This document shows positions 1,999 to 22,056 of a DNA stretch of 25,633 nucleotides, one piece after another (position 1 is the first letter of the stretch; each line of letters starts with the position of its first letter). Where the stretch lies: IMG/VR virus record IMGVR_UViG_3300032282_002297, positions 1 to 25,633 of that record, one strand, 5' to 3'. The notes beneath the pieces are model-generated. The model ran no database searches. It was not told the origin of the DNA and worked only from the letters and a program-made list of their open reading frames with translations. The DNA is from a virus. The translations under genes and the position numbers were made by a program.

Positions 1999-4900
1999 AT
2001 GGATATTTCTATAACCAACGTTAAGACTCATGTGTTTGGACCAAAGACTGAAGCTATTCGAGTAAAGAAGGCTTTGGATATACTGTCACATGACATGGAA
2101 ATAACAGAAAAGGTGGATGGAACCAAGCTGACGTTAGTGCGTACAGAGGCAAATGATGCTGATTATACAAAGAATTGGATCGTTGCATACAAGGGACAAA
2201 TTCTGTATGCCAAGGAGTTTGGACACATTTCAGATAAAGATAAGAAGGATATTACAAAGGTTTCGATTGGAAGAGCACAATATGTGTTGATATTTGATCA
2301 CTTGAAGAAGATTAATGGCAAGGTTGGATCAATACCATCAAATACAGAATTCAGCGTTGAGTTTGCTCAGAACAAAGACACGTTGACAAGAACATATGAA
2401 AATCTTGGTGGGATGTTTCTTAGAAGTTATGGCAAAGTAGAGTATAGAATTGTAGCAGGAAAGTTATACACTCAGGTTGTTGGTGAAGAAGTCACGGACT
2501 ATGTTTCCGTGAATAAAATGGCAAATTTACTTGAAATTGCCACATTCCCAGTAATGTTCAATGGGAAAGTAACTCAGGATAATATCAAGAACTATCCAAC
2601 CATAGCATCAAAGATGGCCGGCGTTGATTGGAAAAATCCGTTGGATGTATTGACCAAGTTTGAAGCCGCGATGCTTTCAATACAATCAACTCTTGGTGGA
2701 AAAACAGAAGGAGTTGTTCTTAAACTTGATGATGGTAGATTTTTCAAGTTCGTGCAAGCTGATCAATATGACACAGAAGCTGGTGCACGTGCGGAAAAAC
2801 AAGCAGCGTTGAAGATAGATCCAGAGGCAAAGACTCCATATTTTCAACTAATACGCAGTCTTATAAACAAGATATTCAAGGAAGTTGGCACAGAAGGTAA
2901 GACTGAAGAAGATATCATTTCAGACGTGAACTTCTATATAGCAAAGAATGACAAGTCCCTTGCAAAGTTCTTTAATGAGCTTATCAAGATTTCTGGTGGC
3001 AAGAGATCCGTTATGGGAGTCCGCGACGACATACATGATACAATCCGCACAATATTGGATAATGAAACATTGCTTACTCAGAACAAGAAGACTGTTGCTC
3101 TTATCCCAATGGGAGCAAAGCCATTTCACAAAGGGCACTTTGAACTAATCGAATTGGCGGCAAAGGAATGTGACAATGTGATTGTGTTTGGATCTCTAGC
3201 AGACAGAAAGGAAAAGGGAGAGTTTCCAATCAAAGGTGAGACATATCTCAAATTCTGGCATGATATGTTCATGCCAATATTACCAAAGAATGTACGCTTC
3301 AAGTTTGCTGACAAGCCAATATCGGCTGTTTATATGCAACTTCGTTGGTTTGAGCAAAGCTTTGTGCAAGACAAAGTTGCGCCACCTATTGTAAGAATAT
3401 ATTCCGACCCAGAAGATCTTAAAACCAATTGGTCAGATGATGTGTTTACAGATCCAAAACGTGGTGGATGTCCTACATTGTTTAATGCTGGAAAGATAGA
3501 AAAGAAAGAAGTGGCAAGAGGATCAAAAACCACGGACATAAGCGGAACAAAGATGCGTCAATTTCTTCAGAGTGGAGACAAAGAGTCTTTCATGAATAAT
3601 TTGCCGCCAGTGACAGATAAGCAGAAGGAAGAAATTTGGGATACTATCATTGCCAGCAAGCCAAAGGAAGTTAACGAAGTCAATCCATATGCCGCATTGG
3701 CAGAGACACTAATCAATGAAGTTGCGGCAGAATTACTTGGTGAAGGTGGTTGGAGAAATCCAACAACACAAGATTGGTCTGTAACACCAAAGATTGTTGC
3801 CAAGATAGATAGTGCAATGGATAAGTTTGTCTCTGCATTCAACGCATATTCAAAGTTACCTCCTATAAAGTCAAATGGTCCAGTAGGAAGCGGAACATAC
3901 TACAAAGATGATTTGAATGACCCAAACGCAAGTTATGGTGACGTAGATATACAACTTGTTCTTCCTGTAGAAAGCAATCTACGCCCAGATCAATTAGAAG
4001 CAAACAAGACATTCAGTGAAAAGATCCGCGAGTTTATCAAAGTAAAAAAGCCAAGTTATATCTATGCTGATCTAACCGATCCAGCATTCGGAATAGGATA
4101 TTTAATATTTGATATTGATGGTCGTAAGATACAAGTTGATCTTGTGCTTTCTTACACAGTGTCGGCAGATTGGACCAAGGTTCGTACAACTCCAGAAAAA
4201 GGATTAAAGGGATTTGTCACAGGAATGATGCTTAGTGCATTAAGTGAAACAATCAATGTTGTGCTAGGTTCTAGTACAAATCCATACATCAACACGTTGA
4301 ATGGTAAAGTTGTATCTTCCGCCACCAAGAAAGGTGCAGTACAGCACTTCTTGAAACCAAATGAAGTGTTTGCTGAAATTGCAAGATATTATGGCAAACT
4401 GGCCGGCGTGCAGAATGTGAATTTATCTGCATTGTCTGGATATCATGGGTTGGATCCACAAGACCCATCTCTAAAAAAGAAATGTGAAACCGTTGTTGCT
4501 TTGGCAAATGCGTTGGATCAGAACGGCATATTTGCCAAGAATGTGATAATAACCAAAGATGGCAAGGTCATCAAATCAAGAAAAGAATTTATAGATAACG
4601 TTTTAAATACCTTTATTGGTATGATGGAGCGTGCAAAAACAGCAAAGAAGTTAGAAAAAGCTCAAACACCAAGCGCTATGAAGACAATAGATAAAATAAA
4701 AGCAGATGCAGATCGTGGAATACAAATGGCAAAACAGATTTTGCGCGAATCTATCATGATGTTGATAGAGTCTGGTCAATCTGTTGCTGCTGTCGATGAC
4801 AAGACACCAAAGATGGTAAACGGCCAACCAGCACAAGCTACAACCAAGTTACGCATCGTTGATCCAAATGGTAAAGACATCAAGAATGCAGTTTCTACAG

Positions 4901-5943
4901 ATGTAAAAGAATTGGTGCATGCTCTAAACGGCAAGGTTCGTTTCTGGAAAAAAGACAGCCCATATATCGAGAACGGCTTCGTGTTCAACGGCAGTTCTCA
5001 GTATTTGATGAGCGGCGATGAAAAATACAAAGAGCTTTCAAAGTATAAGTCTTCATTTGGTGATATTGACGTTATTGTGCCAAAAGAAAAGCTAGATGCT
5101 ATGGAAGCATATCTAGACAGCATTGACGATAAGCAAGTAGATTGGAAACCAACGCCAAAGAACAAAGTAAGCAAGAACTTCTATTATGTTGGTCGCACAA
5201 AGAGCCAACGTGCACTTGCTGGTCAGACTGTAACACTTTGGTATTATGTGCCAACAAAGCAAGTTGTTCAAATTGACTTTGAAGGTGATGAAATGATCTT
5301 GGACCCACAAGGATATGAAAAGCCATCCGAATGGATCAAGTTCATCAAGGATTCACCATATACAGATCTTCAGTCTGGTATCAAGGGCTTGGCTGGTGCT
5401 ATTCTTCTTCGCGGATTGACACGTGCTGCAACAGCACTGCCAAACGCCGTGTATGTTACTAATACAACAGCAGCAAAGATTGAATCTGGTCAACTAAAAG
5501 GATTGGTCGATGCCAAGGGCAAGAGTGTTGTATCTGTTAATGCCACACATGCATTGCCAGCAGAATATACACTAAATACAAGTGGTTCTGGTTTCCAAGG
5601 TGTTCGTAAGGCATATCGCCTTGTTGCAAAGAACATGGACTATCAAGGCAAGAAGGTTGATGTTTATACCGACATTCCAACAAGCGAAAGCAAGCCAGAA
5701 GATCGTATCAATAGTGTATCGAAGGTATTTGAACTTATTTTCAAGCGCAAGCCTTCTGCCGATGACTTAGCAAACTTCAGAAGTTATGTTGGATTGCTAA
5801 AACTAATGAAGACACTGCCAAAAGATGTTCAAGTTAAAGCACTTGAACGTGCTAAGGAAGGCTTTGCTCAATCAGGTTTGGATCCCGCAGAATATGCTCC
5901 AATCCAAAAAGCAGCCAAAGCAACACTTGGAATATCCATATAA
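1999..5943 (+). CDS. Multidomain nucleotidyltransferase: ligase-type domain + HxGH domain + two Pol-beta-like domains
   Basis: A 1314-residue protein with four visible modules. Residues about 1-260 are a covalent nucleotidyltransferase (RNA-ligase type): motif I EKVDGTK with catalytic Lys38, motif III-like FSVEF near 118-122, motif IV EGVVLK at 237-242, motif V FFKF around Lys250. Residues about 360-540 are an NMNAT/cytidylyltransferase-like domain with HKGH at 377-380 and ISGTKMR at 514-520. Residues about 560-900 are a Pol-beta-superfamily domain: GSG at 630-632, D648-x-D650, probable third acid D714. Residues about 910-1200 hold a second one: GSS at 998-1000, D1022-x-D1024, third acid D1093. 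The last 110 residues are helical and unassigned. Likely roles are RNA repair or end-modification, with an adenylyltransferase step (NAD or nucleotide-sugar) as an option; substrates are unknown. It stands alone between a hairpin and promoter-like box upstream and a hairpin downstream. Confidence 0.8.
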   Translation: MDISITNVKTHVFGPKTEAIRVKKALDILSHDMEITEKVDGTKLTLVRTEANDADYTKNWIVAYKGQILYAKEFGHISDKDKKDITKVSIGRAQYVLIFDHLKKINGKVGSIPSNTEFSVEFAQNKDTLTRTYENLGGMFLRSYGKVEYRIVAGKLYTQVVGEEVTDYVSVNKMANLLEIATFPVMFNGKVTQDNIKNYPTIASKMAGVDWKNPLDVLTKFEAAMLSIQSTLGGKTEGVVLKLDDGRFFKFVQADQYDTEAGARAEKQAALKIDPEAKTPYFQLIRSLINKIFKEVGTEGKTEEDIISDVNFYIAKNDKSLAKFFNELIKISGGKRSVMGVRDDIHDTIRTILDNETLLTQNKKTVALIPMGAKPFHKGHFELIELAAKECDNVIVFGSLADRKEKGEFPIKGETYLKFWHDMFMPILPKNVRFKFADKPISAVYMQLRWFEQSFVQDKVAPPIVRIYSDPEDLKTNWSDDVFTDPKRGGCPTLFNAGKIEKKEVARGSKTTDISGTKMRQFLQSGDKESFMNNLPPVTDKQKEEIWDTIIASKPKEVNEVNPYAALAETLINEVAAELLGEGGWRNPTTQDWSVTPKIVAKIDSAMDKFVSAFNAYSKLPPIKSNGPVGSGTYYKDDLNDPNASYGDVDIQLVLPVESNLRPDQLEANKTFSEKIREFIKVKKPSYIYADLTDPAFGIGYLIFDIDGRKIQVDLVLSYTVSADWTKVRTTPEKGLKGFVTGMMLSALSETINVVLGSSTNPYINTLNGKVVSSATKKGAVQHFLKPNEVFAEIARYYGKLAGVQNVNLSALSGYHGLDPQDPSLKKKCETVVALANALDQNGIFAKNVIITKDGKVIKSRKEFIDNVLNTFIGMMERAKTAKKLEKAQTPSAMKTIDKIKADADRGIQMAKQILRESIMMLIESGQSVAAVDDKTPKMVNGQPAQATTKLRIVDPNGKDIKNAVSTDVKELVHALNGKVRFWKKDSPYIENGFVFNGSSQYLMSGDEKYKELSKYKSSFGDIDVIVPKEKLDAMEAYLDSIDDKQVDWKPTPKNKVSKNFYYVGRTKSQRALAGQTVTLWYYVPTKQVVQIDFEGDEMILDPQGYEKPSEWIKFIKDSPYTDLQSGIKGLAGAILLRGLTRAATALPNAVYVTNTTAAKIESGQLKGLVDAKGKSVVSVNATHALPAEYTLNTSGSGFQGVRKAYRLVAKNMDYQGKKVDVYTDIPTSESKPEDRINSVSKVFELIFKRKPSADDLANFRSYVGLLKLMKTLPKDVQVKALERAKEGFAQSGLDPAEYAPIQKAAKATLGISI

Positions 5944-6618: not shown

Positions 6619-6660
6619 TTTGTATTGACAGATATAAATTTGGTTATATCGTGTGAGAGA

Positions 6661-8796
6661 ATGAGCAATTTAAATGTTTTTGGTCACACTTCTTATATTG
6701 GGACAAATGGTATAAATGCGCATTTTAGGCACTTCTACCGAGAGTTATCTGCGCATTGTAATGTCAAGATAAGAAACTTTACAATAGGCAGTACTTGGAA
6801 AGGACTAAGTGCAGAGCCTCATAACAATGAGCAATATATCAATGATGTTGACAAGAAGCTGCTACAACATCAAACGCTGTGGACAAATGGAAAGAGGGTA
6901 GACTATCCTATATACAATCAGTATACTGGCTCATTTGATGTCAACATAGTATCTGATATAGTCGATCATTATTACTATTACGATAGTTATCTTCAGCCAA
7001 GCGTTGCGTACACGGTGTGGGAGTCAACAAAGCTATATTCCAATTTCTTCAATCGTCTCAAGCAATTTGAAGAAGTATGGGTACCAAGCTCATGGCAAAA
7101 AGATTGCATGGTCAATCAAGGGTTTGATAGTAATAAGATACAAATAATGCCCGCTGGTGTAGAAGATGAAATATTTTTCCCAGAAGATGTATCGTATGAT
7201 GAATATTATTCAGACGGTCGGTTCAAGTTCGTAGTGTTTGGAAGATGGTGCTTTAGAAAATCCACGAAAGAACTTGTAGAAACATTCCTAAAGACGTTTG
7301 ATAAGTCCGAACCAGTTGATATCATCATATCTGTTGATAACAGCCATCCAGATGACAATCTTAAGAGTACCGAAGAAAGACTAAAGCATCATGGACTTGA
7401 TGATCCTCGAGTAAAGATTGTACATCACGCTTCCAGAAAAAATTATGTGAAATTTATCAAGAAGGGTCATGTGTTCTTGTCATGTTCACGCGGAGAAGGA
7501 TGGAACCTACCGTTAATAGAAGCAATGGCGGCAGGAACGCCATCCATATACTCAAAGTGCTCTGGTCAGTTGGAGTTTGCAGAAGGCAAGGGCCACCCAG
7601 TTGACATAATCGGCACAACTCAAAGTATCATGGGAGATGGTGGAGACTATTATCAACCAGACTTTGATCATTTGTCCAAGGTAATGAGGGATGTATATGC
7701 AAATTACTCAGCATACAAGCAGAAGGCATTACAAGAGTCCGAAGAAATCAGAAAGAATTTTTCGTGGAAGAGAATAGGAGAAATCGGATCCGAGAAAGTG
7801 CACTCGTTTGCTAAAAGATATAGCAGAAAAATCAACGAGAACAAATCAAAACTGAAAGTGCTGTGTGTTACGCCGCATCTATCGACCGGAGGTGCACCAC
7901 AATATCTATTGAAGAAGATTGAACTTCTCAATGAAGATCATGATGTATATTGCGTTGAATACAATCAAATCGCAACCTTATACGTTGTACAAAGAAACAA
8001 GATCAAGAACATCTTGAAAGAAAAGTTCTATAGTCTTCAAGATCGCCCAAAGGAAGATCTGTTGGATATAATCCAAAGCATTGGTCCAGACGTTATTCAT
8101 TTCGAGGAATTTCCAGAAACTTTCATGGCAAAGCATATTGCCGAGCAGATATACAAGAAACAAAGAGACTACCTTCTATTTGAAACATCTCATGGAATAT
8201 ATTTCAAACAGGATGAAAAGATTTATTACCCCGACAAGTTTTTGTTTGTGTCGGAATACCAAGCCGATCTTTATAAGCAATATAATGTTCCTTGTGAAAT
8301 TATAGAATATCCCGTTGAAATATATACACCAGACAAGCAGAAATACAGAAAAGAATTGAACTTTGAGGATGGTTATAAGCATATCATCAATGTCGGCTTG
8401 TTTACTCCGGGAAAAAATCAAATGGAATTGGTAGAGTATGCAAGACTGCTACAGGATAAAAATGTAAAAGTACACTTTATAGGAAATCAGGCTGGTAATT
8501 TTGAAAATTATTGGAAGCCTATAATGAAGACATTGCCCAGTAATTGTGTGATTTGGGGAGAGCGTGATGATGTGGAAAAATTCTATCAGGCTGCGGATTT
8601 GATGGTATTTACTTCCATAATGGAGTGCTCACCAATTGTTATACGCGAGTCAATAAGTTGGCAGCTGCCATGTTTCATACACAATTTGCCAGCATATAAA
8701 AACATGTATAATAAATACAAGTCTGTGAAATTCTTGACCAGAGCAAGCTTTGAACAAAATCTGAACATGATAAAGAAAGAATTGAATATAACATGA
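6661..8796 (+). CDS. Tandem GT4-type glycosyltransferase (two GT-B domains)
   Basis: A 711-residue protein from ATG 6661; a TTG at 6625 would add 12 residues but places the first Rossmann strand unusually far in. The first GT-B unit (about 1-390) starts NVFGHTSYIGTNG, has a KFVVFGRW strand opening the C-lobe, and carries the GT4 nucleotide-sugar motif E-x7-E (E279 to E287 in RGEGWNLPLIEAMAAG). The second unit (about 400-711) restarts with KLKVLCVTPHLSTGGAP, has INVGLFTPGKNQ, and has a second E-x7-E (E655 to E663 in MECSPIVIRES). Two retaining transferases in one chain suggest two successive sugar additions or one catalytic and one helper domain. Its stop overlaps the next start (ATGA). There is no membrane segment, so it is cytoplasmic. 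It is probably the glycan-extending enzyme of the operon; donor and acceptor are unknown. Confidence 0.85.
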   Translation: MSNLNVFGHTSYIGTNGINAHFRHFYRELSAHCNVKIRNFTIGSTWKGLSAEPHNNEQYINDVDKKLLQHQTLWTNGKRVDYPIYNQYTGSFDVNIVSDIVDHYYYYDSYLQPSVAYTVWESTKLYSNFFNRLKQFEEVWVPSSWQKDCMVNQGFDSNKIQIMPAGVEDEIFFPEDVSYDEYYSDGRFKFVVFGRWCFRKSTKELVETFLKTFDKSEPVDIIISVDNSHPDDNLKSTEERLKHHGLDDPRVKIVHHASRKNYVKFIKKGHVFLSCSRGEGWNLPLIEAMAAGTPSIYSKCSGQLEFAEGKGHPVDIIGTTQSIMGDGGDYYQPDFDHLSKVMRDVYANYSAYKQKALQESEEIRKNFSWKRIGEIGSEKVHSFAKRYSRKINENKSKLKVLCVTPHLSTGGAPQYLLKKIELLNEDHDVYCVEYNQIATLYVVQRNKIKNILKEKFYSLQDRPKEDLLDIIQSIGPDVIHFEEFPETFMAKHIAEQIYKKQRDYLLFETSHGIYFKQDEKIYYPDKFLFVSEYQADLYKQYNVPCEIIEYPVEIYTPDKQKYRKELNFEDGYKHIINVGLFTPGKNQMELVEYARLLQDKNVKVHFIGNQAGNFENYWKPIMKTLPSNCVIWGERDDVEKFYQAADLMVFTSIMECSPIVIRESISWQLPCFIHNLPAYKNMYNKYKSVKFLTRASFEQNLNMIKKELNIT

Positions 8797-11309
8797 AATA
8801 CCAATTAATTAGCAGCTATACACAAACGTCAATAAATCCAAAGGACATTGGGGATTTTCGCAATTCCATAGACATCACATTCAGAGATGGTGCCAAGGTT
8901 GAAATCACTGGACAAGCGGATGAAGAATATGAGATAAACTTTGTAAATGGAGATACAAATCAAAGCATTTATGGCACGCGCATACGCAATAATATGTGGT
9001 GTTCTCCCACACAAAAGCATTATGTGAATTGGAGAGTTGAAGTACGCCGTAACGGTGGGTTGATCAAGCAGGAGATCTTTTCTCTGAAGGACAAGAAGGT
9101 AAAGATTGTAATGGACACTCAAAGTATGGGCGACATCATTGCATATATCGGCGCAGTTGAGGCATTCAGAAAGAAGCATGGCTGTCAGATGAATTGCGTG
9201 ATATTCAATGCAGACGTTCGTAAGATAATGGAAAACAGCTATAAAGATATAAATTTTCTTGCAATAAATGAAAGAGATGAGGAATTTTATGCCGTATACA
9301 AGCTTGGATTTTTCAATGATTGGCAAGGTAGACTTCCAGAAAGTGCACAGAGTATGTCTTTGGCAGACATTGCTGGTAGTATTCTTGGCTTTGGTCAGTT
9401 GGAATTCAAGCCTACACTTGAGTTCAATAGAACAAAGAAGAAGAACGCAAAGAAGTATGTATGCATAAGCACTCAAAGTACCGCGCAATTCAAGTATTGG
9501 AATAATCCAAAGGGATGGAGTGAAGTGATAAAGTATCTGAATAACATCGGGTATGAGGTTTGGTGCATAGACAGATACAACACATTTGGCCACCCAGCAT
9601 CAAATATGATGAACACCATGCCGGCGGGTGCAATAGACAAGACTGGTGAAGTTTCTTTGCAGGAGCGAATGGAACAGATATATAACGCAGAGTTCTTTAT
9701 TGGTCTAAGCTCTGGACTATCTTGGTTAGCTTGGGCGGTTGGAGTTCCAGTGATAATGATCAGCGGCATTGGAAAAAAATGGACAGAATTTTTCACCCCA
9801 TACAGACTGATCAATGAGAATGTATGCAATGGTTGCACAAATAATCCAGAATATCCATTCAATAAAGCGGAGTGGGCTTGGTGTCCAACAAAGAAGAACT
9901 TTGAGTGTACAAAGGAGATTTCATCAGAAATGGTCATCTCGTGTATCAACGACATAATCAATGGAAATGCCAATTTATCGTCATTTGATTGGGGCACTCA
10001 CCAATCCACGAAACAAAAATTCAATCTATATCAGGAATTCTTCGCAACTGGAAAGACAATCTATGAAGATCTATTTGATGTGGAAGAAGGCGATGTGGTT
10101 GTTGATATCGGTGCTCATATCGGCGCATTTTCATATGCAATCAGAAATAAGAAGCCGAGTAAGATCGTAGCAGTTGAGCCAAGTTCAATACGTCACGCCA
10201 CTTTGAAGAAAAATCTGGAAGGACTTCCCGTCACATATATCAAGAAAGGAATTGATGCCACCAATCAGAAGATAACAAATGGCTTGGAATTTGACGGCAT
10301 TGTTGAAGATTTGGAGATAACAACATTCCAAGACTTGGTGAAAGAAAACAATCTTACTCACATTGATTTTCTCAAAGTTGACTGCGAAGGAGGAGAATAT
10401 TCAATTCTCGATGAAAAGAATATTGATTGGGTACTTGCAAATGTAAAAAAGATATCTGGTGAATGGCACTTGGGAAACAAGCAGAGAAAAGAACAATTTA
10501 GAAAGTTTAGAGACACATATCTGAAGAAGTTCAAGAAATATTCCGTATATGCCATCAATGGAGTTGATATCAAATGGGATCTGTTTAATGACCACTTCAT
10601 TGAATTTTATAATGAAGTCATCATTCATATAGACAACCGCGAAGGATTGGTTCAACCGATAGAGACAAATGGGATGTCTGTTCTCATCACGGGCGCATCT
10701 GGTGGGTTGGGTAAATCCTTGGAACAATGTGCTACTTCTCGTGGCATAAAGAACATCGGACAAGGAAACAAGAATGCCAACAAATCTATCAAGTGTGACT
10801 TTACTGATATATCCCAAGTATACAGCATGGAAAAGTATATTGTTGATAATAATATCAACTGTCTTATCAATAATGCTGGCGTATACAACAACAAGCCGAT
10901 TGTGGACATGAGTGATGTTGAAATACAGAATATAATAAACATCAATCTGCTTACTCCTATTCTGCTATCAAAGTATCTGTATAAGCACCTAACAAACACA
11001 AATCAAAAAGGATATATTGTAAATATCAATTCATTGGCTGGAAAGTACCCGAATTATAATGAGGCTGTATATTGTGCTTCTAAATATGGACTGACTGGTT
11101 TGGGCGCTTCACTTTCTATAAATCAAAAGAATTCGCGTATAAAAATAATAGACATACATGTTGGTGCAATGAAGACAGCAATGACATCAAATCGCCCAAA
11201 TCACAACGATTTGATAGATCCAAATGAAATTTCTAATTTTATATTTGACTTGTTGCAGTCGAACTGCGAATATATAACTTCTTCAATTGAAATAAGAAAT
11301 ACTAAATGA
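8793..11309 (+). CDS. Fusion: TibC-type O-heptosyltransferase + FkbM methyltransferase + short-chain dehydrogenase
   Basis: A single 838-residue frame. Residues 1-400 match the autotransporter strand-loop-strand O-heptosyltransferase (TibC/Aah, BAHT) family: the opening SSYTQTSINPKDIGDFRNSI..., the beta-barrel-like N-lobe, and C345-x2-C348-x15-C364-x7-C372, which fits the family's four-Cys iron-finger. These enzymes move heptose from ADP-heptose to Ser on proteins. Residues about 405-620 are an FkbM-type SAM methyltransferase (DIGAHIG 438-444, then LKVDCEGGEYSIL), which usually O-methylates sugars. Residues 628-838 are a classical SDR: TGASGGLG 633-640, NNAG 693-696, Ser747, Y760-x3-K764. An in-frame ATG at 10674 could also start the SDR separately. 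The gene overlaps its neighbours by 4 nt on both sides (ATGA). Domain calls are strong; substrates are inferred. Confidence 0.88.
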   Translation: MKYQLISSYTQTSINPKDIGDFRNSIDITFRDGAKVEITGQADEEYEINFVNGDTNQSIYGTRIRNNMWCSPTQKHYVNWRVEVRRNGGLIKQEIFSLKDKKVKIVMDTQSMGDIIAYIGAVEAFRKKHGCQMNCVIFNADVRKIMENSYKDINFLAINERDEEFYAVYKLGFFNDWQGRLPESAQSMSLADIAGSILGFGQLEFKPTLEFNRTKKKNAKKYVCISTQSTAQFKYWNNPKGWSEVIKYLNNIGYEVWCIDRYNTFGHPASNMMNTMPAGAIDKTGEVSLQERMEQIYNAEFFIGLSSGLSWLAWAVGVPVIMISGIGKKWTEFFTPYRLINENVCNGCTNNPEYPFNKAEWAWCPTKKNFECTKEISSEMVISCINDIINGNANLSSFDWGTHQSTKQKFNLYQEFFATGKTIYEDLFDVEEGDVVVDIGAHIGAFSYAIRNKKPSKIVAVEPSSIRHATLKKNLEGLPVTYIKKGIDATNQKITNGLEFDGIVEDLEITTFQDLVKENNLTHIDFLKVDCEGGEYSILDEKNIDWVLANVKKISGEWHLGNKQRKEQFRKFRDTYLKKFKKYSVYAINGVDIKWDLFNDHFIEFYNEVIIHIDNREGLVQPIETNGMSVLITGASGGLGKSLEQCATSRGIKNIGQGNKNANKSIKCDFTDISQVYSMEKYIVDNNINCLINNAGVYNNKPIVDMSDVEIQNIININLLTPILLSKYLYKHLTNTNQKGYIVNINSLAGKYPNYNEAVYCASKYGLTGLGASLSINQKNSRIKIIDIHVGAMKTAMTSNRPNHNDLIDPNEISNFIFDLLQSNCEYITSSIEIRNTK

Positions 11310-12319
11310 GAGCCGCAATACTTGTTAAAAAGAATGAACCGTTGGTAGTAGATGAAATACATCTTCCAGTAAATTTGGAATATGGCCAAGTGTTGGTAAA
11401 GATACTTGTCAGCGGTTTGTGTGGCGCACAATTACAAGAGATTGCAGGATTGAAGAACAACGAAAAGTTCATGCCACATCTTGTTGGCCATGAAGGTTGC
11501 GGGTTGGTTGAAAAGGTTGGAGCAGGAGTATCAAAGGTAAAGGTCGGAGACAAAGTTGTATTACATTGGAGAAAAGGTTCTGGAATAGAAGCTAATTTCC
11601 CACAATACAATTGGAACGGAAGACAAATGTCTGGCGGCAAGATCACCACTTTATCTGAGTATTCTGTTGTATCCGAGAATAGAATGACAAAGATAGACCA
11701 AGACATTGGCAATGACTTTGCTGCACTTCTTGGTTGTGGAATATCAACTGGCTTTAGTGTTATAAACAAAGATGCAAATGTAAAGTTTGGAGAAAGTGTT
11801 CTTGTTATTGGCTGCGGTGGAGTCGGACTAAACTGCATCTATGCTTCCAAGATGTCTCATGCGTCCGTAGTCGGCATTGATATCAACAAAGACAAAAAGA
11901 AGTTGGTAGAAAAGAACGGCGGTGTATTTTATACTCTTGATGAAATCGAGACTGTAAAGAGCATGAAGTTTGATTGTATTGTGGACACCACGGGTGTGCT
12001 TGAACTTGTGTCTTCTGTATTGCCCACAATGTCAGAACAAGGCAGATGTATACTTGTAGCACAGCCAAAGATTGGTTCTCAGTTATCCATCAACAACCCA
12101 ACGAGATTATTTTCTACAAATGGACAAACTATAAGAACCACACAAGCGGGTGGATTTGATCCAGACGTAGACATTCCAAGATATATAAAGTTATATAAAA
12201 ATAATCAAATTGATGTAGAAACTCTTATCACCGATAGATATGATCTAAACGATATCAATTTGGCAATAACAAAGCTAAAGTCGGGAACGGCAGGTAGAAT
12301 AATGATCAATATATGCTAA
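11306..12319 (+). CDS. Zinc-type medium-chain alcohol dehydrogenase (MDR) of sugar-biosynthesis type
   Basis: A 337-residue MDR enzyme. The N-terminal GroES-like domain has GLCGAQ with the catalytic-zinc ligand Cys39, then GHE with H62 and E63. The Rossmann domain carries GCGGVG at 169-174 and an acidic residue after beta2 (VVGIDIN), pointing to NAD(H). The four-Cys structural zinc lobe of classical alcohol dehydrogenases is absent: the VVLHWRKGSG region has no CxxCxxC. From memory, similar proteins starting MRAAIL...PLVV sit in LPS/capsule loci next to split transketolases. It likely oxidises or reduces a sugar or sugar-phosphate hydroxyl. It overlaps the fusion gene by 4 nt and the transketolase gene by 7 nt, so translation is probably coupled. 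Confidence 0.85.
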   Translation: MRAAILVKKNEPLVVDEIHLPVNLEYGQVLVKILVSGLCGAQLQEIAGLKNNEKFMPHLVGHEGCGLVEKVGAGVSKVKVGDKVVLHWRKGSGIEANFPQYNWNGRQMSGGKITTLSEYSVVSENRMTKIDQDIGNDFAALLGCGISTGFSVINKDANVKFGESVLVIGCGGVGLNCIYASKMSHASVVGIDINKDKKKLVEKNGGVFYTLDEIETVKSMKFDCIVDTTGVLELVSSVLPTMSEQGRCILVAQPKIGSQLSINNPTRLFSTNGQTIRTTQAGGFDPDVDIPRYIKLYKNNQIDVETLITDRYDLNDINLAITKLKSGTAGRIMINIC

Positions 12320-13038
12320 ACGAACGCTCAAAACAAATTAGACGAGATTTATACCATCTCTCCAAAGCAAACGGCGGCTATCATTACGGTGGCACCTTTT
12401 CTACAATAGAAATTCTAATTGCTCTATATGATACAGTATTGAAGAAGGATGACAAATTTATATTAAGCAAAGGACATGCATGTTGGGGATATTATGTATT
12501 GCTTCGTGAGAAAGGATATAATCCATTTCTTGAAGGACATCCTCATTTGGATTTGGCAAATGGAATACATTGGACAACAGGTAGTGAAGGTCATGGAGTT
12601 CCAGCGGGTCTTGGAATGGCATTTGCCAAGAAGAAAATGAACAAGAAGGGACGAGTGTATGTTATCGTTGGAGATGGTGAATGCCAAGAAGGTACAACAT
12701 GGGAAAGTCTATTGTTAGGAGGATACCACAAGGTAAACAACCTAACCGTAATCATGGATAATAACAAAATCCAAGGGTCTGGATATGTGAATGACATTCT
12801 TCCAGTAAATCATATGAAGACTGTTGCCGAGTCTTGTGGATGGGCTGTTACAGAGATTGATGGACATGAAAATCTGCAAATTCTAACCGCACTTCAAGCA
12901 CAATACGACAAGCCTCACTTCATCATTGCAAACACAGTGAAGGGTAAAGGTGTTGACTTTATGGAAAACAAGCCAGCATGGCACTCAAAGTGGCCAAATC
13001 CAACAGAAGAAGCGGAAATTATAAAACAACTTTCATAA
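12313..13038 (+). CDS. Transketolase-like protein, N-terminal (thiamine-diphosphate binding) subunit
   Basis: A 241-residue protein equal to the first domain of transketolase. The thiamine-diphosphate/Mg signature is complete: G120-D-G122, then N150-N151 after 27 residues, with ECQEG directly following GDG. The substrate-side SKGHA (H55) and TTGSEGHG (90-95) motifs are present. In the latter, Glu92 replaces the more usual Leu. Transketolase moves two-carbon ketol units between sugar phosphates and yields sedoheptulose-7-phosphate or its reverse. Split two-gene forms are common in bacteria and in polysaccharide loci. The partner domain follows after one base. Start ATG 12313 overlaps the dehydrogenase stop. 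A pentose-phosphate or heptose-precursor function is inferred from the neighbours. Confidence 0.88.
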   Translation: MLNERSKQIRRDLYHLSKANGGYHYGGTFSTIEILIALYDTVLKKDDKFILSKGHACWGYYVLLREKGYNPFLEGHPHLDLANGIHWTTGSEGHGVPAGLGMAFAKKKMNKKGRVYVIVGDGECQEGTTWESLLLGGYHKVNNLTVIMDNNKIQGSGYVNDILPVNHMKTVAESCGWAVTEIDGHENLQILTALQAQYDKPHFIIANTVKGKGVDFMENKPAWHSKWPNPTEEAEIIKQLS

Positions 13039-13039
13039 T

Positions 13040-13522
13040 ATGAGAAAAGCATTTGGAAAAACAATCGTTGATCTTGGAAAAAAAGATCCTAATCTTTTCC
13101 TACTCACAGGAGATGTGGTGCAGGAAATGGATGAGTTCAAGAAGCTATATCCAGAAAGATTTTACAACTTGGGATTGTGTGAACAATCTATGATCAGCAT
13201 GGCGGCAGGTATGTGCCTTGAAGGCGCACGCCCAGTCGTATATTCTATCACCCCATTCCTATTGGAGCGTCCATTTGAGCAGATAAAGATAGACATTGAT
13301 GAACAATGTCTGCCAGTTATCTTGGTCGGGTTTGCCGATTATCCCACACACGGACCAACCCACCGTCCATTGAATGCCGAGGGCATGTCCAAGTTGTTCA
13401 AGAACATTGTCAGCTTCTTCCCAAGAAATGGTGAAGAAACCGAAAGATCAATGATAGAAGCATATTTGCTCAGAAAACCCGCTCTTATTTGTCTAAAGAA
13501 AGATGGCAAACACCTCCTCTAA
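13040..13522 (+). CDS. Transketolase-like protein, pyrimidine-binding subunit lacking the C-terminal domain
   Basis: A 160-residue protein matching the central (Pyr) domain of transketolase, the half that grips the aminopyrimidine of thiamine diphosphate. NLGLCEQSM holds the expected catalytic Glu (E48), followed by MAAGMCLEGARPVVYSI. The THGPTHRP segment (around 105-112) matches the family's His-containing loop. Stand-alone C-terminal subunits usually run about 300 residues with a third domain; this one stops after LICLKKDGKHLL, so that domain is missing. No frameshifted remnant follows, since the next gene is a methyltransferase. The third domain is not part of the catalytic centre, so an active minimal enzyme with the 12313 partner is plausible. 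Confidence 0.82.
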   Translation: MRKAFGKTIVDLGKKDPNLFLLTGDVVQEMDEFKKLYPERFYNLGLCEQSMISMAAGMCLEGARPVVYSITPFLLERPFEQIKIDIDEQCLPVILVGFADYPTHGPTHRPLNAEGMSKLFKNIVSFFPRNGEETERSMIEAYLLRKPALICLKKDGKHLL

Positions 13523-13523
13523 A

Positions 13524-14312
13524 ATGGTAAAGAAATTCTTCAATTCTATCAAGATATACGATGTTGGATACAACAGAGTACGTCTTGGCAATAAACGCGA
13601 TGGAGGATATGTCGTATTGGATGAAATATGCCAAAAATCCAAAGTGATGTATTCTTACGGAATAAGTGATGATATATCATTTGAGGAAGACTTCTACAGC
13701 AAATATCCAAATAACAAAATTCGTTTATTTGATCACACCATAAATGGCATCAATACAAATAATCCAGATTTTCACTTTGTAAAGGAAGGATTGGCTGCAG
13801 ACAAAGGTCCAAATCTAAATACGTTGGAAAATCATATGGATCATTTCGGTGATACATTCGTTCCAAACAAGACCCTCAAAATTGACATTGAGTGGAATGA
13901 ATGGGATTTCTTCGAGAAACTCAGCATCAAAACATTGCAGGGGTTTGATCAGATATTGTGCGAGTTTCATACTGTTCCTGTGTTATATAAGGACTCTCAT
14001 AGTCCATACTTCACGGGCTTTCATAAGCAAGTATACAACAATATCAACGAGTTAATGTTCAAGAGATACAAGGATATAATGGAAAAGATAACAAAGTATT
14101 ATTTGCCATTTCATGTTCATATCAACAACTCTATCCAACCCGTGGATGTCAACGGTATGTCTATTCCTTCTTTGGTTGAACTAAGTTTGGTAAACCGCAG
14201 CTTGGTCAAAAATTATAGTTTATCCAAAGATAAATACCCAATCGATGGTTTGGATTATCCAAACAAAACAGATAGACCAGATTACTTAAACTTCAAATGG
14301 AACGATGAATAA
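13524..14312 (+). CDS. FkbM-family-like methyltransferase
   Basis: Start ATG 13524 lies one base after the previous stop. An ATG at 13503 would add 7 residues but overlap the transketolase frame. The 262-residue product shows the RLGNKRDGGYVVLDE motif, the YSYGISDDISFEEDF motif I equivalent, and LKIDIEWNEWDFF in place of the usual IDIEGxE; the Gly after Glu is replaced by Trp. This pattern fits the FkbM/Methyltransf_22-like group that methylates sugar hydroxyls with SAM. It is the second methyltransferase of the operon, alongside the FkbM domain in the 8793 fusion, so the final sugar may carry two methyl groups. It overlaps the kinase gene by 8 nt. Confidence 0.75.
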   Translation: MVKKFFNSIKIYDVGYNRVRLGNKRDGGYVVLDEICQKSKVMYSYGISDDISFEEDFYSKYPNNKIRLFDHTINGINTNNPDFHFVKEGLAADKGPNLNTLENHMDHFGDTFVPNKTLKIDIEWNEWDFFEKLSIKTLQGFDQILCEFHTVPVLYKDSHSPYFTGFHKQVYNNINELMFKRYKDIMEKITKYYLPFHVHINNSIQPVDVNGMSIPSLVELSLVNRSLVKNYSLSKDKYPIDGLDYPNKTDRPDYLNFKWNDE

Positions 14313-15036
14313 AACTATTTTAGTCATAGGAGATAGCTGTAGGGACGTGCATGTATATTGCACCGCTAATAGAATGTGCCCAGATAAACCCGTGCCTATT
14401 CTTAAGATTGTTGATCAGAACGACAACCCCGGCATGGCAAAGAATGTATACAGAAATATCAAGACCATGATTGATGGCTGTGATATCATGACCAATCCAA
14501 ATTGGTACAACATAACAAAGACCAGATATGTTCATAAATCAACAAATCATATGTTCTTTAGATTAGACTCTGCCGAGGAAATCAAAAGAATAAACATAGA
14601 CAAAGTTGATTATGATTATGATCATATCGTGGTGTCTGATTACGATAAAGGATATTTGACAGAAGAAGACATACAGACCATTGCTGAAAACCATGACTCG
14701 GTGTTTCTTGATACCAAGAAGATACTTGGTCCTTGGGCAAACAAGGTAAAGTTTATCAAGATCAATAATCATGAATATGCTCGCTCTGCCAATCATATAA
14801 CGCCAGTAATGGCAAATAAGATAATACAAACCAGCGGAGCAGATGGTTGTTACTATCTTGGAGAAAAATATCCAGTAGAACAACAGGACGTTATAGACGT
14901 ATCTGGCGCAGGTGACTCATTCTTGGCAGGACTTGTTATAGAATACTCAAAGAGCAATGACATCATATCTGCCATCAAGTTTGCGAATGAATGTGCCAGC
15001 AAGGTTGTAAAACAACGCGGAGTTTCTGTCATATAA
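14305..15036 (+). CDS. PfkB-family sugar kinase, HldE/RfaE kinase-domain-like
   Basis: A 243-residue ribokinase-fold protein. The N-terminus (ILVIGDSCRDVHVYC...CPDKPVPIL, then NPGMAKNV) follows the heptose-7-phosphate kinase half of HldE (RfaE domain I) and related phage kinases. VSGAGDSFLAG holds G201-A-G-D204 with the catalytic Asp. HldE kinase domains are usually near 310-320 residues, so this copy is compact, with shortening in the region around residues 50-110 (lid and substrate side). HldE's adenylyltransferase half is not fused; an HxGH domain exists elsewhere in the window (1999 gene). Likely reaction: phosphorylation of a heptose or other sugar phosphate. It is the last gene of the glycosylation operon, followed by a 36-nt AT-rich gap. 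Confidence 0.78.
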   Translation: MNKTILVIGDSCRDVHVYCTANRMCPDKPVPILKIVDQNDNPGMAKNVYRNIKTMIDGCDIMTNPNWYNITKTRYVHKSTNHMFFRLDSAEEIKRINIDKVDYDYDHIVVSDYDKGYLTEEDIQTIAENHDSVFLDTKKILGPWANKVKFIKINNHEYARSANHITPVMANKIIQTSGADGCYYLGEKYPVEQQDVIDVSGAGDSFLAGLVIEYSKSNDIISAIKFANECASKVVKQRGVSVI

Positions 15037-17172: not shown

Positions 17173-19116
17173 ATGGCAGATCAAAAAGATTTATTTACAA
17201 AGCTGAAGAAGATGTTCTCTACGGACGTTATTGTCCGTAATGTGGGCGGCAAGAAGATCAAAATTATTGACACGGATGAGATCCAATACGCCACAGACAG
17301 AAACAGTTTGCGTGACCGTTTCAATCGTTTAAGAAGTAGCACTTTCAACTTGCACAACCGCGATATGTCTATGGCATATCAAGCAAGTCGTTTGGAGTTG
17401 TTTAGAGATTATGATGTCATGGACATGGATCCAATCATTGCTTCTGCACTTGATATCTACTCTGATGAATGTCTTGTACCAAGTGAATTCGGTAATGTGC
17501 TTACCATCCGCTCCAAGAATGAAAACATCAAGCGCATATTGCACAACTTGTTTTATGACATCTTGAATGTTGAGTTCAATATGTGGAGTTGGACACGTAA
17601 CATGTGCAAATATGGTGACTTCTTTCTGCGATTGGAAATATCACCAGAGTATGGTGTATATATGGTACATCCTATCAGTCCATATGAACTAACTCGTATT
17701 GAAGGCAGTGATCCAAAGAACTTGAACTACGTCAAGTATCAACACGATGGCATGGGTGGCGGTATGGAATATGAAAACTTTGAGATTGCTCACTTCAGAC
17801 TATTGAGTGATAGCAACTTCCTACCATATGGTAAATCAATGATCGAGCCTGCTCGTCGTGTATGGAAGCAATTGAGCTTGATGGAAGATGCCATGTTAAT
17901 TCACCGCATCATGCGTGCGCCAGAAAAGCGTATCTTCTCCATCGATGTTGGTAATATACCTCCAGCCGACATTGATGCTGCAATGCAAAAGATCATCAAT
18001 CAGGTAAAGAAGGTTCCGTATATTGATGAAAAGACGGGTGATTATAACCTACGTTTCAATCTAAACAACATGGTGGAAGATTTTTATCTGCCAGTTCGTG
18101 GTGGAGACAGTGGTACAAAGATTGATACATTACCGGGTATGGACTTTACTGGTATTGATGACCTTGAATATATCCGTAACAAGATGATGGCTGCACTCAA
18201 GATACCAAAGGCATTTCTTGGGTATGAAGAAGGTTTGTCTGGTAAAGCTACCTTGGCAGCAGAAGACGTTCGCTTTGCTCGTACTATTGGTCGCATTCAA
18301 CGCATTATCGTTTCCGAATTAACCAAGATCGCCATTGTACACTTGTATGTGCAAGGCTATCAAGATGCATCGCTTGTTGACTTTGAGCTTGAACTAAGCA
18401 ATCCAAGTACAATCTTCGAGCAAGAAAAACTAGAAATTTGGCAAAACAAGATCAATCTTGCCACCGACATGATTGAAAGCAACATGTTTAGCAAGAAATG
18501 GATATATCACCAAATCTTCAGCGTATCAGAAGATGACATTGAAAAGATAAGCTCGGATGTTATTGCGGATAAGAAGAATGAATGGAGAATAAAGCAAATC
18601 ACCGATGAGGGCAGCGATCCCGCATTTGCATCTGGCGAAGGTGAGGGAGGCGGTGGTGGTGGTGGTGGTGGCGAAGGCGGAGGTTTGGGTGACCTCGGTG
18701 GCGGTGGCGGTGGTGGAGAAGAGGGTGGCGGCGGCGGTGGCGAAGAGGGCGGCGGACTGCCTCCACTTGAAGAAGAGAAAAATGCCGACGAACCTATTCT
18801 TGATGAAGAAACAAGAAAAGAACGCGAAAGAGGTATTCGTCCAAGCCAAGAAGGTAACAAGGAAAAATATACATCATCTCATACAAAAAACTTTGGAGAA
18901 GATCCTCTTGGAAACAAGGAAAATACTGAAAAATCAAAGTCTGACCGCAGAACCCGTCATATATACAGAGGCTCTGCTTTGAGCATGGATGAGGATCTAA
19001 AAAGTATAAAAAAATCATTAATGGATAGGTATAATGGCAAAAATAAGAAAATTATAACCGAAGAAAAGTCCATACTAGATGAGTCTAATCTAATTCAAGA
19101 GGATAAACCTCTCTAA
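17173..19116 (+). CDS. Portal vertex protein (T4 gp20-like)
   Basis: A 647-residue protein, longer than T4 gp20 (about 520). The body (1-470) is a clear gp20-type portal: YQASRLELFRDYDVMDMDPIIASALDIYSDE, MWSWTRNMCKYGDFFLRLEI, RAPEKRIFSIDVGN and the DLEYIRNKMMAALKIPKAFLGYEE block. It forms the dodecameric ring at the head vertex that nucleates head assembly and conducts DNA. The C-terminal 160 residues are unusual: a Gly/Glu low-complexity tract at 488-528, then a charged, probably disordered tail. It is preceded by a late-promoter-like box and no Shine-Dalgarno. The tail sheath and tube genes (g18, g19), which separate g17 from g20 in T4, are missing here. Confidence 0.95.
   Translation: MADQKDLFTKLKKMFSTDVIVRNVGGKKIKIIDTDEIQYATDRNSLRDRFNRLRSSTFNLHNRDMSMAYQASRLELFRDYDVMDMDPIIASALDIYSDECLVPSEFGNVLTIRSKNENIKRILHNLFYDILNVEFNMWSWTRNMCKYGDFFLRLEISPEYGVYMVHPISPYELTRIEGSDPKNLNYVKYQHDGMGGGMEYENFEIAHFRLLSDSNFLPYGKSMIEPARRVWKQLSLMEDAMLIHRIMRAPEKRIFSIDVGNIPPADIDAAMQKIINQVKKVPYIDEKTGDYNLRFNLNNMVEDFYLPVRGGDSGTKIDTLPGMDFTGIDDLEYIRNKMMAALKIPKAFLGYEEGLSGKATLAAEDVRFARTIGRIQRIIVSELTKIAIVHLYVQGYQDASLVDFELELSNPSTIFEQEKLEIWQNKINLATDMIESNMFSKKWIYHQIFSVSEDDIEKISSDVIADKKNEWRIKQITDEGSDPAFASGEGEGGGGGGGGGEGGGLGDLGGGGGGGEEGGGGGGEEGGGLPPLEEEKNADEPILDEETRKERERGIRPSQEGNKEKYTSSHTKNFGEDPLGNKENTEKSKSDRRTRHIYRGSALSMDEDLKSIKKSLMDRYNGKNKKIITEEKSILDESNLIQEDKPL
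18634..18756 (+). repeat. Gly/Glu low-complexity tract in portal gene
   Basis: Codons for residues 488-528 are almost only GGN and GAR, giving runs of up to 9 Gly broken by Glu, followed by LPPLEEEK. The tract keeps frame and codon variety, so it looks like a real flexible linker rather than a sequencing artefact. Confidence 0.85.
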
Positions 19117-20049: not shown

Positions 20050-20382
20050 ATGAAAAAATCAGAACTAAAAGCGTTGGTTAGAGAAGCGATCTCGGAAATG
20101 TACGATGATCCATATGCTGGTGTAAAATTTGCCAAGTCAGTAACCACATTGGATCCTGTTCTGACGAATGAAGCCAAGAAGACAAACGCAACTTTGAGTC
20201 AATTACATGCCAAATTAAAATCCGCAGTTCTGGCCAAGTATGGTGAGAAATTTACAAACATTGAAATTTACTTTGAGGTAAATGCTCAAGGAAAATCAAC
20301 AATCCATGTCTCTGGAAACAATCCAGAAATAGAGCATGGCGGACGCCTTGATGTGAAAATCGCGTCGGACGGAACTGTTTAA
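20050..20382 (+). CDS. Small protein with capsid-targeting-like N-terminus (g67/g68 position)
   Basis: A 110-residue protein. The first 16 residues form an amphipathic helix ending I14-S15-E16 (MKKSELKALVREAISE), which fits the T4 prohead-protease cleavage consensus [I/L]-x-E. The rest has an acidic loop, a basic helix (QLHAKLKSAVLAKYGEKF) and a small beta-strand domain (IEIYFEV...STIHVSG...RLDVKI). It lies where T4 encodes prohead core proteins and 1.1 kb upstream of the protease gene. Core component or head-packaged internal protein are the two likely roles; neither is proven. Confidence 0.65.
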   Translation: MKKSELKALVREAISEMYDDPYAGVKFAKSVTTLDPVLTNEAKKTNATLSQLHAKLKSAVLAKYGEKFTNIEIYFEVNAQGKSTIHVSGNNPEIEHGGRLDVKIASDGTV

Positions 20383-20398
20383 TCTTCATAACTAACAC

Positions 20399-20893
20399 AT
20401 GAAAGACACCAAGCAACTAATCCGCGAACTTGTTGAAGAAGTCATTGAAGAGATGACAGCAACGGGTGCTGTTGCTGGTTATCAAACCCCAGCAGCATTC
20501 CGTGGTCACAAAAGCAAGAAGAAAGCCGCTGAACGCAGCATGCCGGGCGGCAAAGTTGTTGGCAAAGAAGAAACAGATGATACGACAGTTGGTGAGGGCG
20601 AAACTCTCACATTGCGCAGAGATGTACAAGTAATGGAAGAAGCTCGCAGTCGTTATCGCAACTTCAAGGAGAGCGATATGATGAGAAATCATGCCAAGAT
20701 TTCATATGGCATAAATCAAGCAAAGAAAATGCTTGGTGAAGTTGAATATCTTGTTGGTATTTGCGAGCGTCTAAAGACAGAGTGTGGATACAGCAAAGAT
20801 AATCTGTGGGCACGCACTCAACCAGACATGAATGAAATACATCGTAGATTAAAGGAAATTGCCAAGAGAATTAACAGAATGGGAAAACAATAA
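20399..20893 (+). CDS. Small basic protein with capsid-targeting-like N-terminus
   Basis: A 164-residue protein. The N-terminal helix MKDTKQLIRELVEEVIEE ends in I16-E17-E18, matching [I/L]-x-E. It is followed by TGAVAGYQTPAAFRGH, a motif I remember from small structural proteins of T4-like marine phages, then a Lys-rich stretch and a C-terminal helical half with two Cys (GICERLKTECGY) and a basic end. The pattern, an acidic leader removed to leave a basic body, is what T4 internal head proteins look like. There is a 16-nt gap to the gene before and 5 nt to the gene after. Confidence 0.65.
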   Translation: MKDTKQLIRELVEEVIEEMTATGAVAGYQTPAAFRGHKSKKKAAERSMPGGKVVGKEETDDTTVGEGETLTLRRDVQVMEEARSRYRNFKESDMMRNHAKISYGINQAKKMLGEVEYLVGICERLKTECGYSKDNLWARTQPDMNEIHRRLKEIAKRINRMGKQ

Positions 20894-20898
20894 CATTT

Positions 20899-21423
20899 AT
20901 GAACCTATCCGACATTGCCAAAAAGATCATTAGTGAAGATACATGGGGTAACAACCCATCTGCTGCTGGAGGCATGTCGCCGGGCCGTACACCAACTGCC
21001 ACCCCTCCGCCAGCTACACCAAATGCAAAGATGATTGATATTTCCAATTTGTTCAAGAATTTCAAGTCGCAATTGGAAAAGCAGGAAGATGCCGCAATCA
21101 GAAAATTGGAAAATGACCTTAAGAGACAATTTCTAAAGAAACACGTCAAAGTAAAAGCTTCAAAAGGAAGCGTAGGTCAGATTGAAAAGGAATATGATGT
21201 AACGGTCAACAACATCGACGTGCGTTATATGAAGGACAAGTATTATATCGTATTCAATGGCAAAGAAGGTAATTCAGCCGAAAGCGAATATTACTTGGAT
21301 GACTCTGTCATAGAAGTTGATAACACCGCTGCGCCAGTTTCGCCCACAGGAACAACAGGTGGAATGAGTGTAACGCCACAATCAACTGGCAACACAAATA
21401 GAAACATCGTACCTCAAAGATAA
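20899..21423 (+). CDS. Small head-region protein with capsid-targeting-like N-terminus
   Basis: A 174-residue protein. The first 13 residues (MNLSDIAKKIISE) end in I11-S12-E13, again the [I/L]-x-E protease consensus. After a Gly/Pro/Thr-rich linker (about 17-45) comes a basic coiled helix (LFKNFKSQLEKQEDAAIRKLENDLKRQFLKK). It is followed by a compact beta domain (about 90-145: YDVTVNNIDVRYMKDKYYIVFNG...SEYYLDD) and a Thr/Gly-rich tail. No known family is recognised. It lies 6 nt before the protease gene, so core protein or internal head protein are the best guesses. Confidence 0.65.
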   Translation: MNLSDIAKKIISEDTWGNNPSAAGGMSPGRTPTATPPPATPNAKMIDISNLFKNFKSQLEKQEDAAIRKLENDLKRQFLKKHVKVKASKGSVGQIEKEYDVTVNNIDVRYMKDKYYIVFNGKEGNSAESEYYLDDSVIEVDNTAAPVSPTGTTGGMSVTPQSTGNTNRNIVPQR

Positions 21424-21429
21424 AAACAT

Positions 21430-22056
21430 ATGAGCAAGCAACTATTAGTAGACTTTATTCCATTTGAAATTTCTCCTCAATTATTGAGCGAGGCCAAGGC
21501 AAATCCAAATGCTCCATTGGTGCTGAAGGGACCATTGCAAAAAGCAGGAGAAAAGAACCATAATGGTCGTGTGTATCCAAAGGAAGTTCTTGCGCGTGAA
21601 GTTGAAAAGTATCAACAAATCATCAGAGAACGTCGTGCACTTGGTGAACTTGATCACCCAGAAAGTTCAGTAATCAATCTTAAGAATGTATGCCATAATG
21701 TAACAGAATGTCATTGGGAAGGTGACACTGTTGTTGGCACGATTGAAATCTTGACCACACCATCTGGCAATATTGCTCGCGATCTTATTCGTAACAATAT
21801 CCGCATCGGTATCAGCAGCCGTGGTCTTGGCAGCGTTCGTCAAATGAACGAAAACACCGTAGAAGTTCAAGATGACTTTGAGCTATTGTGCTTTGACCTT
21901 GTGTCATCACCATCAACACGCGGTGCATATATGAACCTTGCTGAAGGAGTCAACCGTGACAAGCAATTGATCGGCGGAACTCAAGACCGCAAAGACATCA
22001 ACAAATATCTCAAGATTGAAAGCATCATTCGTGACATCCTTTCAGAAACTCGCTAA
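21430..22056 (+). CDS. Prohead maturation protease (T4 gp21-like)
   Basis: A 208-residue serine protease of the gp21/assemblin fold, close to the T4 length. GELDHPE carries the catalytic His76; IGISSRGLGS carries Ser129/Ser130 (second Ser of the pair is the usual nucleophile); FDLVSSPS follows with D156. NHNGRVYPKEVL and VGTIEILTTPSGNI are further family blocks. It is made as part of the prohead core, self-activates, then cuts scaffold and capsid after [I/L]-x-E. Such a site (ILSE) lies three residues from its own C-terminus and another (LLSE, 18-21) near the N-terminus, both suited to autocleavage. Confidence 0.92.
   Translation: MSKQLLVDFIPFEISPQLLSEAKANPNAPLVLKGPLQKAGEKNHNGRVYPKEVLAREVEKYQQIIRERRALGELDHPESSVINLKNVCHNVTECHWEGDTVVGTIEILTTPSGNIARDLIRNNIRIGISSRGLGSVRQMNENTVEVQDDFELLCFDLVSSPSTRGAYMNLAEGVNRDKQLIGGTQDRKDINKYLKIESIIRDILSETR

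Follow-up and report, generated by a model that had tools for sequence, protein, structure and literature searches.

The IMG/VR record IMGVR_UViG_3300032282_002297 is a 25.6-kb viral sequence (25,633 nucleotides, referred to in its entirety as the window) that belongs to a T4-like phage. At positions 1999-5943 of its plus strand, a single uninterrupted open reading frame (ORF) starting with ATG encodes a protein of 1314 amino acids, which comprises an RNA ligase, a nucleotidyltransferase (NTase) of the HIGH type, and two NTases of the DNA polymerase beta (Pol-beta) type, named here B1 and B2. Relatives of this protein were found on 24 viral contigs with 62-90% identity, many of them full-length at 62-72%. 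The ORF is real, intact and conserved, and its catalytic residues are invariant among the relatives. An initial annotation of the window had listed four sets of active-site residues, namely K38-V-D-G41, H377-K-G-H380 together with ISGTKMR (residues 514-520), D648/D650/D714 and D1022/D1024/D1093, all of which we found at these residues. Its view that the sites are intact is borne out far beyond chance, given invariant residues in 37 relatives of the ligase-HIGH part (module A), 32 of B2 and 9 of B1. It is virtually certain that the chain contains four real enzyme domains.

The RNA-ligase domain covers residues 1-355 (positions 1999-3063, plus strand, as for all parts of this gene) and the HIGH domain residues 361-555 (3079-3663). 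Motifs I (K38xDG), III, IV (E237GVV) and V of Rnl2-like ligases are all present, and K38, D40, G41, K43, E121, E237, G238, K250 and H380 are invariant across the 37 diverse module-A relatives. In an AlphaFold model of this module (predicted local distance difference test score, pLDDT, 89.7), residues 1-265 matched the folds of the Naegleria RNA ligase (Z 12.7), T4 Rnl2 (Z 12.1) and the fungal tRNA ligase. From about residue 263 onwards the ligase is all-helical, with no oligonucleotide-binding (OB) fold in the predicted secondary structure, which makes a DNA-ligase architecture unlikely. In line with this, a Pfam scan of the ligase module detected RNA_ligase (E 1.1e-6 in the best-scoring relative) and no DNA ligase. 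Residues 363-555 of the model matched phosphopantetheine adenylyltransferase (PPAT, Z about 12) and NMN adenylyltransferase (NMNAT, Z 11.7), and Pfam and PDB profiles also recognized this domain; PPAT, NMNAT and ATP sulfurylase matched alike in the fold and profile comparisons, and the PHROG nicotinamide-nucleotide adenylyltransferase family was matched too. In standalone relatives the first histidine of HxGH is mostly threonine (TxxH or TxGH in 26 out of 37) and G379 is often alanine, while the ISxT motif is retained. The T/HxGH variant also occurs in phosphopantetheine adenylyltransferases. Judged from motifs and models, it is near certain that module A combines an ATP-dependent, Rnl2-like RNA ligase domain with a HIGH domain. 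Supply of an adenylylated cofactor, modification of tRNA and restoration of NAD+ are all candidate roles for the latter; an NAD/NMN step, raised in the initial annotation, is possible.

B1 (predicted mature residues 583-917, positions 3745-4749) carries G630-S631, D648, D650 and D714, which are invariant in the 9 B1 relatives, and B2 (predicted mature residues 925-1314, positions 4771-5940) carries G998-S999, D1022, D1024, Q1091, D1093 and E1095, invariant in the 32 B2 relatives. Structure prediction, which the initial annotation had proposed for each module, matched known folds for the ligase, HIGH and B1 domains. A joint B1-B2 model (pLDDT 82.1; predicted template modelling score 0.51) placed B1 on the palms of DNA polymerases beta, lambda and mu, with Z 9.3 to DNA polymerase beta over 182 residues. 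The matched rows of this search span the B1 region only, and B2 is assigned as a putative Pol-beta-type NTase by its motifs and predicted secondary structure. Neither B1 nor B2 matched a nucleotidyltransferase family in Pfam, PHROG, NCBIfam and PDB-sequence scans, or RlaP (PF10127) in a Pfam scan of 37 members. A profile comparison of B1 with B2 was not significant; MAFFT aligned the standalone B1 of locus L159 onto B2, motif by motif. The best matches of the B1-B2 model in a viral structure library were A0A7D7ILJ5 and A0A6J5TD12. The second (E 8e-17) is a 1096-residue phage protein named ParB/sulfiredoxin, perhaps another fused packaged protein.

In divergent T4-like phages, module A and B2 are encoded by separate genes of about 500 and about 400 codons, respectively. 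With the exception of locus L066, B2 lies upstream of ligase-HIGH on the same strand in essentially all loci that have both, at distances ranging from a slight overlap to about 2.9 kb. Out of 50,697 phage records, 22 contain B2 and 23 contain ligase-HIGH. Both come from the same phages, which infect Campylobacter and Vibrio or are Xanthomonas phage X1, and one additional record had a HIGH match only. The 22 B2-bearing records represent few lineages and not 22 independent events. In CP220 the two genes co-occur though they are 66 kb apart, and in Xanthomonas phage X1 a ligase-like KLDG protein (WEM34319, a weak profile match), a HIGH protein (WEM34320) and B2 are encoded by separate neighbouring genes. 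B1 is optional: it is missing in L047 and L051, internally deleted in L021 and standalone in L159. One pattern scan of bacterial and archaeal genomes found no B2 relative. The families phrog_27149 and phrog_19290, both without assigned function in PHROG, match ligase-HIGH and B2, respectively.

About ten loci also encode a P-loop kinase (AAA_33, E 1.5e-8) beside or fused to ligase-HIGH: its gene is immediately upstream in five of them and close by in another four, and in L055 the two are fused. Together, kinase, Pol-beta NTase and ligase form the set expected for the healing, rebuilding and sealing of RNA ends. Other genes occur in this neighbourhood as well. phrog_1462, a family of unknown function, recurs next to B2 and ligase-HIGH or in the interval separating them (in L062:4571-5932 and L075:7431-8828, and by eye also in L078:3298-4659). 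L084, L086 and L130 have tandem pairs of B2-type ORFs, each of which begins M-GGN in L086 and L130; in L084 the pair looks like one gene that has been broken. L119 has a 265-residue gene (4796-5590) located between those for B2 and the P-loop kinase; its product, a possible packaged metalloprotease, starts with MKFVDFLNEK, which resembles a head tag, and contains the HExxH motif HELNHW.

The linkers of the fused protein carry patterns of the kind cut by T4-type prohead proteases. Linker 1 (residues 560-582, positions 3676-3744) contains the predicted sites LAE569, INE574 and LGE582↓GGW (the arrow marks the cut), and linker 2 (residues 908-924, positions 4720-4770) contains the tag KQILRE and the predicted sites LRE917 and LIE924↓SGQ. 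Hydrophobic-x-E↓GGW precedes B1 in all relatives that have B1, taking the form (L/F)xE↓GGWR in fused proteins, and LxE↓SG(Q/K)S precedes B2 in fused relatives, L051 being a partial exception (LSE↓AEGKS); in both, P3 is hydrophobic, P1 is fixed as Glu and P2 is free. Because these protease-type sites fall exactly where the standalone homologues begin, a single enzyme is less likely than a polyprotein cut into three, with predicted products ligase-HIGH (1-569), B1 (583-917) and B2 (925-1314). The initial annotation had proposed an all-in-one RNA repair enzyme. The repair part of that proposal fits the RNA-ligase fold with its helical tail, the linkage of ligase and Pol-beta genes and the P-loop kinase, but the all-in-one part is probably wrong given the linker sites. 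Internal translation starts, considered in place of proteolysis, are unlikely, as most fused relatives have no methionine in linker 2.

Linker 2 also links the polyprotein to the phage head. The motif KQ(L/I)(L/I)xE had 23 matches in 124,667 residues encoded by loci of the fused clade, all of them in linker 2 or close to where small head-cluster proteins start, versus none in 124,036 residues from loci of the standalone clade. The major capsid propeptide of the fused clade contains AKQLIDE↓A and several LxE sites. Since the tag is common to head-cluster N-termini and the capsid propeptide, linker 2 can be tied to prohead targeting and to the phage's own S77 protease. This protease, of the T4 gp21 type (Peptidase_S77), is encoded in the window at 21430-22056 on the plus strand (PF03420, E 1.1e-24; phrog_207, E 2.2e-53). 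Between the portal gene and the protease gene lie three small head-cluster genes (20050-21423, plus strand) with the N-terminal tags LKALVREAISE, KQLIREL and AKKIISE, and a further head-cluster gene at 22814-23533 (plus strand) begins with the tag LLKQLISEIANKANE. Together with the terminase (starting at 15458) and portal (starting at 17173) genes downstream of the polyprotein gene and a probable scaffold gene (starting at 24156), this arrangement resembles the gene order of the T4 head cluster. The polyprotein gene itself is located in the late head/tail region, and in the longer relative G001 some 21 kb separate it from the major capsid gene further downstream.

Tags and cut sites were also apparent in the standalone proteins. 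Out of 38 standalone B2 proteins, 23 start with M-GGN and 15 with a short leader, such as MKSFRAYLNDTLINE↓GGN, MKTYLNE↓GGN or MKLSELMFILE↓GGN. All 15 leaders have (I/L/F/M)xE directly before GGN, compared with a background of 2 in 1335 GG pairs. Methionine aminopeptidase normally removes a Met that is followed by Gly (PMC10052503). Mature B2 would thus begin with GGN in both cases, as either Met is removed before Gly or a gp21-type protease cuts after Glu. For the ligase-HIGH proteins we used a cleavage-site test alongside a strict T4-tag expression. The pattern (ILVFM)xE(ASGTN) occurs within 13 residues before the domain in 27 of 33 proteins (background 5% in random windows to 16% at N-termini), with the other 6 starting at the domain, and the strict expression matched 11 out of 34 (background 1.3%). 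Leaders such as MKTFKQYITEA in L071 resemble the T4 ipII/ipIII start MKTYQEFIAEA, as read from the T4 record, and the standalone B1 of L159 begins MRIRDLFE↓GGW. Cleavage of T4 Alt has been described at ITE-6 and LTE-619 (PMC5694885). At the other end, 13 of the 38 B2 proteins, of the M-GGN type, have tag-like C-terminal tails, as scored with a loose, uncontrolled pattern (LRESFRDYLNTLGE and VNETFRSYLNSLEK; L064, L067, L073, L083, L119 and L123). By analogy with T4 Alt these tails are possibly C-terminal capsid tags, although this is suggestive only. On these sequence patterns we consider head targeting and cutting of the polyprotein probable, an aspect that is new here and absent from the initial annotation.

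From the domains with their intact active sites, the modularity, the gene linkage, the tag and site signatures and the protease gene, which are read from sequence and models, we infer packaging, cleavage, injection, an RNA or tRNA substrate and a role for the HIGH domain. In the model that we favour, the polyprotein would be made alongside the head proteins and its linker tags would draw it into the prohead core, where the T4-type protease would cut at hydrophobic-x-Glu sites to release ligase-HIGH, B1 and B2. The three enzymes would then be ejected with the DNA into a new host and would repair RNA, most plausibly tRNA, that rapid defences have broken there. Lost nucleotides would be restored by a Pol-beta module before the ligase seals the break, and in relatives that encode one, the P-loop kinase would prepare the 5' ends. 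RlaP Pol-beta enzymes are predicted to restore nucleotides lost from cut tRNA ahead of ligation (PMC7824862); B1 and B2, which are not RlaP by profile, would take a similar role. We give this model, with all its elements taken together, a probability of about 50%. RNA repair as the function is moderately favoured; the presumed substrate is tRNA, and the presumed adversaries are anticodon nucleases of the host. In its most far-reaching form, in which the heads of some T4-like phages would contain this polyprotein, cut by the prohead protease, as a ready-made repair kit that is injected with the genome, such that tRNA repair begins before any phage gene is expressed, the model is put forward tentatively.

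Several observations weigh against this model. The Pfam RNA_ligase score of the window's own module (24.3 bits) is below the gathering cut-off of 27, the fold of B2 is unconfirmed and the kinase resembles the PNK family only weakly. The hydrophobic-x-E motifs are short, the tag and site counts include related sequences that are not all independent, and at its N-terminus the fused protein lacks a tag. Mass spectrometry of Campylobacter phage IBB_35 identified 38 virion proteins, with little proteolysis among those detected, and the main texts on the virion proteomics of IBB_35 and CP21 do not name ligase-HIGH or B2 products. Neither gene of the Vibrio Va1 pair is tagged and the Campylobacter ligase-HIGH proteins start untagged (in phages CP220, CPt10 and IBB_35 B2 is tagged), so packaging is not universal and may be limited to some family members. 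Lastly, G001 additionally encodes AAA_33 kinases and an RlaP of the ordinary kind, which would make RNA repair partly redundant there; these extra enzymes may serve later infection.

The untagged Vibrio and Campylobacter proteins would suit an uncut, all-in-one RNA-repair enzyme that is made in the cytoplasm during infection and whose linkers are ordinary flexible helices. The enzyme evidence is identical for such a protein, and fusion by itself joins activities. Nevertheless, we regard it as unlikely, because it leaves aside the cut-site pattern at the standalone starts with its invariant P3 and P1 and free P2, the head-protein tag in linker 2 and the position of the gene in the late head/tail region. 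Quite unlikely, in our view, is an injected kit for DNA end-joining and gap repair, in which an ATP-dependent ligase and Pol-X-type polymerases would mend or join the ends of the incoming genome as in non-homologous end joining (NHEJ). B1 does match Pol beta, lambda and mu palms best, ligase plus polymerase is an NHEJ pairing too, and head packaging would suit the protection of incoming DNA; however, the ligase matches RNA ligases in fold and Pfam family and has a helical tail in place of an OB fold, no Ku-like partner was seen, and neither B1 nor B2 has a sequence match to DNA polymerases. An injected nucleotide-cofactor system, in which HIGH counters defences that deplete NAD by regenerating NAD+ or a different adenylylated cofactor while the other domains modify proteins or small molecules, draws on the NMNAT and PHROG matches of HIGH and on passages of PMC5512222 in which Pol-beta NTases of polyvalent proteins are predicted to modify proteins, but is very unlikely given the equally good PPAT match, the lack of a NadV or Nudix partner in the window and a ligase and kinase that indicate nucleic acid ends.

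The remainder of the window is occupied by genes of other kinds. The ORFs at 2-754 and 760-1590, which show GSSGTSG repeats of the collagen type and a very high glycine content, probably encode tail-fibre proteins. The C-terminal part of the portal gene contains a long Gly/Glu-rich stretch (18605-18850). A sugar-metabolism island (6625-15036), flanked by the tail-fibre and terminase genes, includes a double glycosyltransferase, an alcohol dehydrogenase, a PfkB-type kinase and an 838-residue fusion of a heptosyltransferase-like domain, an FkbM methyltransferase and a short-chain dehydrogenase. Two further ORFs of the island (12313-13038 and 13040-13522) look like the halves of a split transketolase.

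Known phage RNA repair enzymes are made after the onset of infection, while host anticodon nucleases can halt translation at once. If the head-packaged polyprotein model is true, a virion-delivered repair kit would remove this race, would be a class of cargo not seen among the injected proteins known so far (Alt, IPI) and would provide a case in which the head protease of a phage matures an enzyme polyprotein. The model also offers a testable function and delivery route for phrog_27149 and phrog_19290, which occur in Campylobacter and Vibrio phages that are in culture and which the window protein, in contrast to those families, fuses with B1. The closest parallel for delivery is provided by the T4 internal head proteins and Alt, which are targeted to the capsid, cut by gp21 and ejected, and with which the family shares MKTYQEFIAEA-like leaders in standalone relatives, (I/L)xE sites as in Alt (PMC5694885) and an S77 protease in the head cluster. 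The predicted cargo here, however, consists of RNA-repair-type enzymes instead of an ADP-ribosyltransferase or nuclease inhibitor, and in this clade three of them form a single chain whose linkers bear the tags. Polyvalent proteins (PMC5512222) likewise combine several unrelated activities in one chain, and their injection is predicted as it is inferred here; built-in peptidases are proposed for them in place of a prohead protease, and the domain set found here is not described in the passages concerned. With respect to enzymology, T4 Pnkp/Rnl1, Rnl2 and the jumbo-phage RlaP systems (PMC7824862) share the combination of ligase and Pol-beta NTase, often with a P-loop kinase, but differ from the present family in that its ligase is fused to HIGH, its genes carry head tags and B1 and B2 fall outside the RlaP family, a true RlaP coexisting in G001. 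The ligase itself has the adenylyltransferase core and motifs I, III, IV and V of T4 RNA ligase 2 and the Naegleria RNA ligase, from which it differs by its low identity (12-16%), the HIGH domain that follows it and a motif V that keeps one conserved lysine (K250).

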